From contig WGND01000003.1 in NCBI GenBank assembly GCA_016124805.1, positions 248,001 to 312,000 on the forward strand: a DNA stretch of 64,000 nucleotides, given 5' to 3'. The position numbers and the translations under genes are program-made. Shown here one piece after another: positions 16,257 to 19,731 of this stretch. The notes below the pieces were generated by a model. It made no database searches and had not been told where the DNA came from. It saw nothing but the letters and a program-made list of their open reading frames with translations. This DNA comes from Hyphomicrobiales bacterium (GTDB lineage: Bacteria > Pseudomonadota > Alphaproteobacteria > Parvibaculales > Parvibaculaceae). Each line of letters starts with the position of its first letter. The first letter of the stretch is position 1.

Positions 16257-17510
16257 TCAGGCGTGCAGGCGCACCGGCATGTAAGCGTAGCCGCGCACGA
16301 AATTCGAGCGGACACGTTCCGGTTCCTTCAGCACTTCAATATGGGAGAAGCGGGCAAGAATTTCTTCCCAGAGAATCTTCAACTGCATTTCGGCGAGTCG
16401 GTTGCCGACACAGCGATGAATGCCGAAGCCGAAGGAAAGGTGTTGGCGGGGACGGGCGCGGTCGATAATGAGTTCTTCCGGCTGGTCGATCACGTCGTCG
16501 TCACGGTTGCCCGAGAGATACCACATGACGACTTTGTCGCCCTTTTTGATCACCTTGCCGCCGACTTCATGGTCCTGCAGCGCCGTGCGGCGCATATGGG
16601 CAAGTGGGGTCTGCCAGCGGATGATTTCCGGCACCATGGTTTCGACAAGCGCGTGATTGGCCTTGAGCTTCTCGAATTCCTCCGGAAAGCGGTTGAGGGC
16701 CAGCACACCGCCCGTCATTGAATTTCGTGTGGTGTCATTCCCGCCCACAATCAGCAGCAGGATGTTGCCGAGGAATTCTTCCGGCGGCATGTTTCGTGTG
16801 GCGGGCGAATGGGCAAGCATCGAGATCAGATCATTGCCCGGCTCCTTCTTGTTGACCCGCTCATTCCACAGGGTCATGAAGCTTGCCGCACATTCCTGCA
16901 ATTCGGTCGCGCGCTGTTCCCAGCTATCGATAATGCCGCTGCCGGGTTCGGCTGTGGTGACATCGGACCAGCGTGTCAACTTACGGCGTTCATCGAAGGG
17001 AAAATCGAAAAGCGTCGCCAGCATCTGGGTTGTCAGTTCGATGGAGACTTTGTCCACCCAGTCAAAGGCTTCGCCAACAGGAAGCCGGTCGAGAATATTC
17101 TGCATGCGCTCGCGGATTGTTTTTTCGAGCACCATGAGATTGCTGGGTGCAACAATGGGGCTGACCGTTTTGCGTTGCGCGTCGTGTTCCGGGGGGTCCA
17201 TGGTGATGAAGCTGCGCAGCGGCAGGCCTTCGCTGCGGACATTGTTGTCATCAATGATGATGCCGCCGACACCGGCCTCTGAGGAGAAGACCTGATGGTT
17301 GGTGTCCACTGCCATGATGTCATTATATTTGGTGATCGACCAATAGGGGCCATAGGCGCTTTCCGTGCAATAATGCACCGGGTCTTCCTTGCGCAATCGG
17401 GCGAAATATTCGCCCACCGTGTCGTTGACGAAAAGGTCCGGGTTGCTCACGTCGATCTTGTCGAGGGGAACGGACTGGGCGGTACCGGCTTCAAGGGTTG
17501 CGATGCTCAT
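16257..17510 (-). CDS. CYP153-type cytochrome P450 (alkane/fatty-acid omega-hydroxylase), copy 1
   Basis: 417 residues from the chosen ATG. The protein follows the CYP153A pattern throughout: NPxLF...[14 protein letters not shown] near the N-terminus, [19 protein letters not shown], the I-helix [17 protein letters not shown], and the haem loop [11 protein letters not shown] with Cys about 367. CYP153 enzymes hydroxylate the terminal carbon of medium-chain alkanes and need a ferredoxin and a reductase; neither is nearby. GGGAGAGAG supports the ATG at 17510 over one 15 bases upstream. It is a close paralogue of the next gene and carries its own terminator, so it looks like a tandem duplicate. 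The gene is soluble and catalytically intact by motif. Confidence 0.9.
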
Positions 17511-17534
17511 TTCTCTCTCTCCCATAGCTTTCCA

Positions 17535-17695: not shown

Positions 17696-18952
17696 TCAGA
17701 CGTGCAGCTTGACGGGCATGTAGCTGTAACCACGCACAAAATTTGACTTCACGCGTGTCGGTTCGCCCATGACTTCGATGCTGGAAAACCGGGCCAGCAG
17801 TTCTTCCCACAGAATTTTAAGCTGCAATTCAGCAAGGCGATTGCCGACGCAGCGATGAATACCGAAGCCAAATGACAGATGCTGACGCGGGCGGGCACGA
17901 TCAATGATGAAGGCTTCGGGATTTTCGATGGCGTCTTCATCACGATTGCCAGAGTAGTACCACATCACCACCTTGTCGCCCTTGCGAATCTTCTTGCCTC
18001 CAAGCTCTGCATCTTCGAGAGCCGTGCGGCGCATATGGGCAAGCGGCGTTTGCCAGCGGATGATTTCCGGCACCATGCCGTCCATAAGGGTGGGATCGGA
18101 TTTCAGCTTATAGAGCTGTTGCGGGTTCTGATGCATGGCGAGGACACCGCCTGACATCGAATTGCGCGTGGTGTCATTCCCGCCTACGATAAGCAGCAAT
18201 ACATTGGCGAGATATTCAAGCTGGGTCATGTTCCGCGTAACAGGGGAATGCGCAAGCATGGACACCAGATCGGACTTGGGTTCTGCGTTAACACGTTCAT
18301 TCCAGAGGCGCTGAAAATATTCAGCGCATTCGAAAAGCTCGGTTGTACGCGCCTCCCAGGATTCAACGATGCCGCTATCCGGTGAGGCCGTGGCCACATC
18401 GGACCACCGTGTCAGCTTGCGGCGATCTTCGAAGGGGAAATCAAACAGCGTCGCAAGCATCTGTGTTGTAAGTTCGATGGCGACCTTGTCGACCCAGTCA
18501 AATGTTTCTCCGACAGGCAGGCTGTCGAGTGTGTTTTGGACACGACCGCGAATGATGGGCTCCATGACAGCGAGGTTGCCTGGGGCCACGATGGGACTTA
18601 CGACTTTACGCTGTTCATCATGGCGCGGGGGATCCATGGCAATAAAATTCGGCAAGTCGATAGCGCCGGCGCCACTGCTTTTCTGAATGGAATCATCAAT
18701 AATGATGCCTCCGAGTCCGGCTTCTGATGAGTAAGTCTGATGGTTGGTGTCGACCTGCATGATGTCTTGGTATTTCGTCACCGACCAATAGGGCCCATAA
18801 GCGCTGTCGGCGCAGTAATGCACCGGGTCTTCCTTGCGCAGGCGTGCGAAATACTCACCGACCGTATCGTGTTCAAAATAGGCCGGGTTGCTGACGTCGA
18901 TCTTATCGAGCGGTATGGATTGCGCATCGCTGCGTTCAAGAGTCATAGACAT
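17696..18952 (-). CDS. CYP153-type cytochrome P450 (alkane/fatty-acid omega-hydroxylase), copy 2
   Basis: 418-residue CYP153-type P450, closely similar along its whole length to the neighbouring copy. Key features: [20 protein letters not shown]-helix [17 protein letters not shown], and haem loop [11 protein letters not shown] with Cys 368. GGAGGA upstream fits the ATG at 18952. It is transcribed away from the TetR gene, and its predicted promoter (TTGACT at 19022-19027, GATACT at 18998-19003 on the minus strand, 18-base spacer) is covered by a LuxR/HapR-type palindrome. Redox partners are not present in the window. Alkane terminal hydroxylation is inferred from the family; the natural substrate is unknown. 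Confidence 0.9.
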
Positions 18953-18985
18953 GGCATCTCCTCCAATTGGCTCCTCCCGAGCCGC

Positions 18986-19009
18986 CTTATTGAGTAAAGT
19001 ATCAATAAG
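18986..19009. promoter_or_regulatory. LuxR/HapR-type operator between P450 and TetR genes
   Basis: Perfect inverted repeat CTTATTGA-N8-TCAATAAG. Both 7-base half-sites equal those of the Vibrio LuxR/HapR/SmcR consensus (TTATTGA-N8-TCAATAA), spaced identically. It overlaps the predicted -10 of the minus-strand P450 promoter, so binding would be expected to repress it. The adjacent TetR protein has the matching HapR-like DNA-binding domain. The link between protein and site is inference. Confidence 0.75.
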
Positions 19010-19128
19010 AAAGGGGCTCTAAGTCAACCGGATTTCGCCCGTCAGATCAGTGTCTCGCGGAAGGTGCCGCGCCGCCTTATAGTGTCGGCCTGGTTGCGTG
19101 ATTCCCGGAGGACTTGAAGGCATTGATT

Positions 19129-19731
19129 ATGAAGGAAAAAATCAGGCGGACCCGGCTTGCGCCTGAAGCCCGCCGCGCCCAGTTGCTGCAGTGCACAATT
19201 GTGGCATTGGCGGAATATGGTGTCGCGCGGGCGACCCATTCCCATGTTGCCGAGCGGGCGGGGGTGTCCGTTTCCGCCGTTCACTCCTATTTCCGGACAC
19301 GGAATGATTTGGTGAGTGCCGGTCTTGATGCGGTCGAGGAATTTCTGGTCACCAATGTGGAAACATCGCTGGGCGAGGGGCGCGGCGTGCGCGAGGCGCT
19401 GATGCGTCTGGCGACAGAGTTTGCCCGTATCGCCCGCGAGAATCCCGATATCATCAAGGTCTGGCTCGACTGGAGCACGGGCGTGAGAGCCGACACCTGG
19501 CCGCGCTATGTCGATATGCTGACACGCCTCCACAAAATGGCGGAAAAGGTTTTTGCGCGCGGCAAACGTGAAGGGCTTATGTCTCCCGAGCTGAACGTCA
19601 AGGCTGCCGCGCGTCTCTATATTGGCGATGGCCACACGCTTGCGCTCAGCCAGTTTGCCGGTGTCACCCAGCGCGAGATGGATATTCTGACGGCGCAGAT
19701 TGTCGATACCTTCATGCTGCCCGGGAAATAA
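19129..19731 (+). CDS. TetR-family regulator of HapR/LuxR type
   Basis: 200 residues from ATG 19129, preceded by GAAGG; a TTG at 19114 is possible but too close to its GGAGG. The N-terminal helix-turn-helix (about 5-60: RRTRLAPEARRAQLL, THSHVAERAGVSVSAVHSYFRTRNDLV) is patterned like Vibrio HapR/SmcR rather than the average TetR. The ligand-binding half also resembles HapR (ENPDIIKVWLDWSTGVRADTWPRYVDML). It is divergent from two CYP153 genes across a site matching the LuxR-type consensus, so it probably regulates them. The ligand is unknown. Naming as HapR-like is based on pattern, not a search. Confidence 0.8.
   Translation: MKEKIRRTRLAPEARRAQLLQCTIVALAEYGVARATHSHVAERAGVSVSAVHSYFRTRNDLVSAGLDAVEEFLVTNVETSLGEGRGVREALMRLATEFARIARENPDIIKVWLDWSTGVRADTWPRYVDMLTRLHKMAEKVFARGKREGLMSPELNVKAAARLYIGDGHTLALSQFAGVTQREMDILTAQIVDTFMLPGK

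Follow-up and report, generated by a model that had tools for sequence, protein, structure and literature searches.

A HapR-like TetR regulator and its candidate operator beside a CYP153-type cytochrome P450 gene

A palindrome carrying the half-sites of the Vibrio LuxR/HapR operator lies between the divergent genes of a HapR-like TetR regulator and a CYP153-type cytochrome P450 in a 64,000-nt stretch of DNA, hereafter called the window. It is probably the dedicated operator of the adjacent regulator, which would repress CYP153 and be released by an alkane or by an oxidised or acyl product. The site, its conservation, its co-occurrence with the regulator, the protein family, the predicted fold and the overlap with a promoter match were all computed. 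The nearest named relatives of the locus belong to Parvibaculum, which is most likely also the genus of the window.

The palindrome, the promoter and the P450 genes

The intergenic stretch 18953-19128 parts the P450 gene (17696-18952, minus strand) from the TetR gene (19129-19731, plus strand), and the two genes are divergent. Within this stretch, positions 18986-19009 read CTTATTGAGTAAAGTATCAATAAG, that is, two 8-base arms (CTTATTGA and TCAATAAG) flanking the 8-base centre gtaaagta. This 24-bp palindrome, to which no strand is assigned, is an operator predicted from sequence and conservation. The half-site pattern of LuxR, HapR and SmcR in Vibrio is TTATTGA-N8-TCAATAA. The 22-bp site of this type (18987-19008) lies within the palindrome and equals the pattern in 14 of 14 half-site bases and in the 8-base spacing, just as an earlier note on this DNA had claimed. 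Furthermore, it is the single exact match both in the window and in the whole genome (3,211,644 bases). At up to three mismatches the window holds six matches, compared with 0.91 in shuffles, and at up to two mismatches the whole genome holds eight places, compared with three for the backward pattern. The full 22-mer LuxR consensus is TTATTGATAAATTTATCAATAA, and no match to it was found at up to three mismatches. The wording "near-consensus" in the earlier note is therefore true of the half-sites and the spacing, but not of the centre.

A wider regulon in this genome was considered but is not supported. Three of the seven non-operator places from the genome search at up to two mismatches (L002-L004, comprising two places with one mismatch and one with two) overlap long open frames, and near four other P450 genes of the genome the matches have three to four mismatches.

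The promoter scan returned a sole sigma-70-like match on positions 18900-19200, directed toward the P450 gene. It consists of a -35-like TTGACT (19022-19027, minus strand, read from 19027 to 19022), an 18-nt spacer and a -10-like GATACT (18998-19003, minus strand, read from 19003 to 18998). GATACT lies inside the operator, in agreement with the earlier proposal that the palindrome covers the -10 of the P450 gene, with the caveat that just four of its six bases fit TATAAT; so weak a -10 counts against repression from this position. A likely ribosome-binding site of the CYP153 gene, GGAGGAG (18958-18964, minus strand), was recognized by eye. On the other side, TATAGT (19078-19083, plus strand), also found by eye and absent from the promoter-scan output, aligns with CTATACT in most orthologues and lies between the operator and tetR. 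This box is probably the tetR -10. Autorepression of tetR is not obvious, because the operator is about 70 bp from this likely -10. GAAGG can be seen by eye upstream of the tetR ATG at 19129.

The best PDB match of the P450 was CYP153A7 (3rwl, E 1.2e-217), which headed a list of 15 PDB sequences with E-values of 1e-60 or better. By its nearest characterised relatives the protein is a predicted CYP153 alkane hydroxylase, which bears out the earlier naming of a CYP153 promoter. A second CYP153-like P450, assigned by similarity and 74-75% identical to the first, follows downstream in the same direction (16257-17525, minus strand), and the two genes probably form one operon.

A regulator of the HapR-like clade

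The gene at 19129-19731 encodes a TetR-family regulator of 200 aa, which profile, PDB search, fold and tree all identify as HapR-like. In Pfam, TetR_N alone was above the cut-off. In the profile search proposed by the earlier note, NCBIfam NF040929 (LuxR/HapR/OpaR quorum-sensing regulator) was the best of the 19 families listed (2.4e-23), which speaks for the family, but the score of 82.9 bits is far from the equivalog cut-off of 350 bits. A PDB sequence search gave HapR, OpaR, LuxR and SmcR chains as the best 18 matches (4e-22 to 3e-18), and the next match followed at 5e-8. Conversely, when a LuxR of the Vibrio clade (L044) was searched against this genome, the regulator came first (2.5e-19; next 4.5e-5).

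The structure prediction that had also been suggested pointed the same way. With a 42-row alignment as input, Vibrionaceae members among its rows, AlphaFold (AF2) gave a model with a pLDDT of 94.7. The top 43 rows in Foldseek all belonged to the HapR/LuxR/SmcR/OpaR group, and so did the top 22 rows in VIA (Z 23.6-19.9). In VIA the HapR group stands only a little above other TetR folds, rows 22 and 23 (Z 19.9 and 19.3) being tied by the rule of the tool, and the sequence evidence is clearer. Behind the HapR group came other TetR proteins, among them FadR of Bacillus and FasR of Mycobacterium, these two at 13-17% identity. According to its PDB title, FadR was solved with stearoyl-CoA, and FasR is an acyl-CoA sensor. 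The operators of both differ from the HapR type.

A quick tree was built from 119 TetR proteins. In it, a branch with SH-aLRT 100 separated 60 HapR-like rows, pre-selected by similarity and including the window regulator, from all others. The 59 other rows were 30 of the 37 TetR_N matches of this genome and 29 of the 36 from two Vibrio-type genomes. The window regulator sits within a clade of 25 rows (SH-aLRT 99), most of them alphaproteobacterial. Vibrionaceae form a separate 10-row clade (SH-aLRT 100), which joins Oceanospirillaceae and one hpt-linked relative (SH-aLRT 97). Among the best 80 of 227 relatives, all 21 Vibrionaceae loci have hpt (E 1e-10) close to the gene, whereas the 59 other loci have no hpt there. 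The window regulator has no hpt neighbour; its neighbours are CYP153 and folP. Because of the tree, the NF040929 score and the missing hpt, we place the regulator in the HapR-like clade and not in the Vibrio HapR orthologue group. The earlier note's HapR-like TetR protein is thus upheld for the wider clade, but not for the Vibrionaceae HapR/SmcR/LuxR group: it is a cousin of HapR and not an orthologue.

Outside Vibrio, few genomes encode HapR-like proteins. At E 1e-25 or better, the profile matched in 6 of 385 genomes of a class sample, including the genome itself and one congener, and in 13 of 398 genomes of a phylum sample, nine of the 13 being from one Vibrio-type genus. A search of a plasmid collection gave one distant match alone (H1, NZ_AP026896.1). 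This record, filed in the plasmid collection, is a 4.9-Mb Aeromonas caviae sequence with a HapR-like protein and no listed feature under the match.

For a comparison of residues, SmcR numbering was transferred via a Vibrio row (L122). RTRL at positions 9-12 is conserved in the window regulator, and the pocket residue W114 is conserved in all groups compared. In the recognition segment, T52, F54, N55 and P58 of SmcR are replaced by Ala, His, Ser and Arg. N55 of SmcR is reported to be important for DNA recognition (PMC12977469), and the differing segment, including the change of N55 to Ser, counts against the palindrome as the operator of this regulator. Among the pocket residues, taken from the account of SmcR in PMC12977469, N133, Q137, N164 and H167 correspond to Leu, His, Arg and Ile, with the alignment unsure from 164 onward, where Vibrio rows vary or end. 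The polar contacts of the pocket differ, and therefore the ligand need not match that of SmcR.

The site within the genus and beyond

An orthologue of the regulator (E 1e-15 or better) is encoded in 23 of the 40 genomes searched from the order. All of them come from the 27 genus genomes (own included), and none from the 13 genomes of other genera. The search for the same site beside the same genes, proposed in the earlier note, gave a positive result. All 23 genus orthologues carry the site upstream at up to three mismatches, and within short fetched stretches a divergent CYP153-like gene was counted at 22 of 23 loci (own included) and folP on the opposite side at 19 of 23. The core ATTGAGTA-NNN-TATCAAT is exact at 22 of the 23 loci and has one mismatch at the last (G021/L025), inside an intergenic alignment of 54% mean column identity. 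At two loci, L025 and L070 (1100-1560), where the P450 is missing or cut short, the site carries a further mismatch and TTGACT is no longer present.

When all 27 genus genomes were searched, the core was present in exactly the 23 with the regulator and in none of the four without it. The completeness of these four is 57, 83, 92 and 100%, and the two low values weaken the case. Since the core was defined on the loci of the 23 genomes, its presence there is partly built in, but its absence from the other four is not. Each of the 23 genomes has one core, with one extra 1-mismatch match in G035, which fits the local switch suggested earlier.

To look across the family, we counted sites in 86 upstream regions, namely the window and 85 loci. 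L079 (contig end) and L070 (broken locus) were excluded, as were L005-L027, L030, L031, L037 and L039-L046, which repeat genus or Vibrio-type genes. TTATTGA-N8-TCAATAA was found at up to two mismatches in 45 of the 86 regions, whereas the backward control was found in none at this threshold and in five at up to three mismatches. Dinucleotide shuffles gave at most 1.3% in any group. As to the spacing, with up to one mismatch TATTGA-Nn-TCAATA occurred with n = 8 in 41 of 86 regions, and the 14 other spacings (2 to 16) gave a total of seven.

The groups weigh more than these totals, because L032 and L075 are probably one species and L034 and L093 are near-identical. At up to two mismatches, the site was present in 20 of 20 Parvibaculum regions (window included), 8 of 9 other CYP153-linked regions and 6 of 6 gammaproteobacterial regions with a di-iron-like neighbour. 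It was present in 3 of 7 Sphingomonadales, where L083 was mis-anchored by an over-long ORF and its locus has two 2-mismatch sites. Lower counts came from Vibrionaceae (4 of 21), scattered relatives (3 of 16) and Oceanospirillaceae and kin (1 of 7). The lack of such a site in 13 of the 16 scattered relatives and 6 of the 7 in the Oceanospirillaceae group counts against a dedicated operator. A HapR-like operator is therefore common, but not universal, in the HapR-like clade. To judge from these counts (4 of 21 and 1 of 7), the Vibrio branch is not characterised by a strong site in front of the regulator's own gene.

The relatives come from a scan of named genomes, of which the best 80 of 227 were used. 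A HapR-like gene that diverges from CYP153 and has a site with 0-3 mismatches was found in Sphingorhabdus, Zavarzinia and Acidocella, and likewise in MAGs of Acetobacteraceae, two Rhodospirillales, Proteobacteria and Nevskia. At HapR-like loci of Sphingomonadales the neighbour was PF10118 in two of three scanned. The neighbour ORF of L082 had no Pfam match and may be miscalled, and that of L078 is 72% identical to the Sphingomonadales PF10118 neighbours. PF10118 is filed as a metal-dependent hydrolase; by eye, the consensus of these neighbours has ExxH and EExxH and resembles di-iron proteins, and a PDB search with them gave no match. Seven Sphingomonadales loci (L072, L078, L080-L083 and L085) show tandem sites 24 bp apart, the second of which is often TTATTGTG- or TAATGTG-like.

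In six gammaproteobacterial MAGs (L086, L088, L089, L091, L092 and L099), a 1-mismatch site lies about 40-75 bp upstream of the HapR-like gene. Their neighbour is a 395-aa di-iron-like protein, in which an alignment of five of the six loci shows two DEARH motifs. It reached no Pfam cut-off in the three scanned, and its sole PDB match was a VlmB homologue (E 0.0012). Elsewhere, the HapR-like gene adjoins an acyl-CoA dehydrogenase (L035, L100), a fatty-acid desaturase (L038), a wax-ester synthase (L102) or an MPAB/Lcp-type protein just above the cut-off (L108). In a Polycyclovorans MAG (L095:3809-4789) it is divergent from an AmoC-family copper monooxygenase subunit, with a best site of four mismatches. 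Among these six loci, L035 and L038 only have a site at up to two mismatches.

Some neighbours are off this oxygenase and lipid pattern, such as carA (L096), hpt (L036), an NtaA/DmoA-type FMN monooxygenase (L047), an amine oxidase-like protein with an unidentified one (L034) and a pyridine-nucleotide oxidoreductase (L033). A HapR-like gene on a MAG contig titled Klebsiella pneumoniae (L117) groups with L047, and this contig may be misassigned. In other alpha- and gammaproteobacteria, sites thus occur upstream of HapR-like genes that often stand by oxygenases or acyl/lipid enzymes. This is a trend and not a statistic, as the survey covers 23 distinct, hand-picked neighbour proteins.

Mode of control and significance

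We infer binding, repression rather than activation, and the class of the ligand. A TetR dimer bound to the operator would cover the -10 region of the CYP153 promoter and so keep both CYP153 genes from being transcribed. The dimer would leave the DNA when its hydrophobic pocket takes up a ligand, which may be an alkane but is more likely an oxidised or acyl product. In this genome the regulator would act as a single-site local switch and not as a global quorum-sensing regulator. The arrangement of two divergent genes with a single operator covering the target's -10-like box is that of a TetR local repressor. An alkane-derived inducer may be expected because of the precedents AlkX and CypR described in PMC8784404.

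The same protein and site could also work in the opposite direction, with the TetR protein activating CYP153, for example from a tandem site close to the -35, by DNA bending or by contact with RNA polymerase. LuxR is reported both to activate and to repress, and some promoters are among those it activates (PMC2628434). Moreover, 14 of the 23 genus loci have a second degenerate HapR-type site (up to three mismatches) beside the -35, at a distance of 22 bp and taking in the stretch of TTGACT, a layout that points to two dimers at these loci. The genome studied here lacks this additional site, however, and the conserved site overlaps the -10-like box, which is a repressing position. Repression is also the commonest outcome at HapR/LuxR targets, according to studies in PMC10328515. 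We therefore regard activation as unlikely.

It is very unlikely that the conserved block is the core of the CYP153 promoter, or the site of another regulator, and resembles a HapR site by coincidence. The block does hold the -10-like box, and A+T-rich palindromes are common regulator targets in general. Yet CYP153-like genes are present in three of the four genus genomes that have no regulator, and one of these (G031, 92% complete) keeps a CYP153 gene (74% identical) directly adjoining folP (L206:2745-2924), with neither tetR nor the site; the best match in this 4.2-kb locus has five mismatches. This indicates that the operator is separable from the promoter and that the site was lost with the regulator, not with the P450. 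G031 is a natural loss of the regulator and operator pair. Furthermore, the 22-bp site stands upstream of HapR-like genes with other neighbours, and at up to two mismatches it is upstream of none of 30 other TetR genes of this genome (2 of 29 in two Vibrio-type genomes). This genome has six places similar to the P450 at E 1e-30 or better, including the two in the window. Near the other four genes (L190-L193), the operator matches in the fetched stretches have three to four mismatches at best.

Least probable of all is a role of the TetR protein in a quorum-sensing circuit that couples alkane oxidation to cell density, for which the family likeness to LuxR/HapR is the one argument, while the single core site here stands against 32 to 105 mapped HapR/LuxR targets (studies in PMC10328515), hpt is not a neighbour and the profile score is far below the equivalog level. 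A search for LuxI (PF00765) gave no match in this genome, but as it gave none in any control genome either, this carries no weight.

The proposed local repressor shares several features with LuxR, HapR, SmcR and OpaR of Vibrionaceae, namely the TetR fold, the N-terminal RTRL, the W-[LF]-[DE]-W-S motif and a 22-bp operator with the same half-sites and spacing. It differs from them in overall sequence (22-30% identity in structural alignments), in residues of the recognition segment and the pocket, in having one sequence-matched site where they have dozens, and in the missing hpt. Among regulators of alkane oxidation, AlkX of Dietzia is described as a TetR repressor of alkW1, with C10-C24 fatty acids listed as effectors (PMC8784404). 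By this description it is similar in its TetR-type local control of an alkane hydroxylase, but its target alkW1 is AlkB-type, and AlkX lies downstream of it. CypR, the AraC-type CYP153 activator of Alcanivorax and Dietzia, is likewise a dedicated regulator adjoining a CYP153 cluster, although it is an activator of an unrelated family (PMC8784404). The same source reports a TetR-like gene flanking the CYP153 cluster of Mycolicibacterium chubuense NBB4. Among the matches listed in a search of the open-licence literature, judged by title and the start of the abstract, none concerned a HapR-like regulator of CYP153. The window regulator would represent a type of CYP153 regulator other than the AraC-type CypR, with a possible use in alkane biosensors.

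The interest of the finding is carried by its implications for evolution and for the ligand. According to PMC12977469, the HapR/LuxR/SmcR family has no known native ligand, though crystals show density in the pocket. Pompeani and colleagues considered that an ancestral LuxR possibly carried out quorum sensing by derepression in response to a small autoinducer (PMC2628434). The existence of relatives in which the operator is retained next to just one oxygenase gene points to another ancestor, a metabolite-responsive local switch. We tentatively suggest, as a possibility that we would not yet call probable, that the Vibrio quorum-sensing regulators are a branch of an old family of local switches, that quorum sensing recruited a metabolite-responsive repressor, and that their native ligand is an alkyl or acyl compound. 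If so, the local switches of this family would be partnered with oxygenase genes (alkane, fatty-acyl and others), one 22-bp operator would have survived in many branches, and the long-sought ligand of HapR, LuxR and SmcR would be related to what the CYP153-linked members sense. For this question of the ancestor, the CYP153-linked regulator would make a simple test system, for which candidate ligands readily come to mind.
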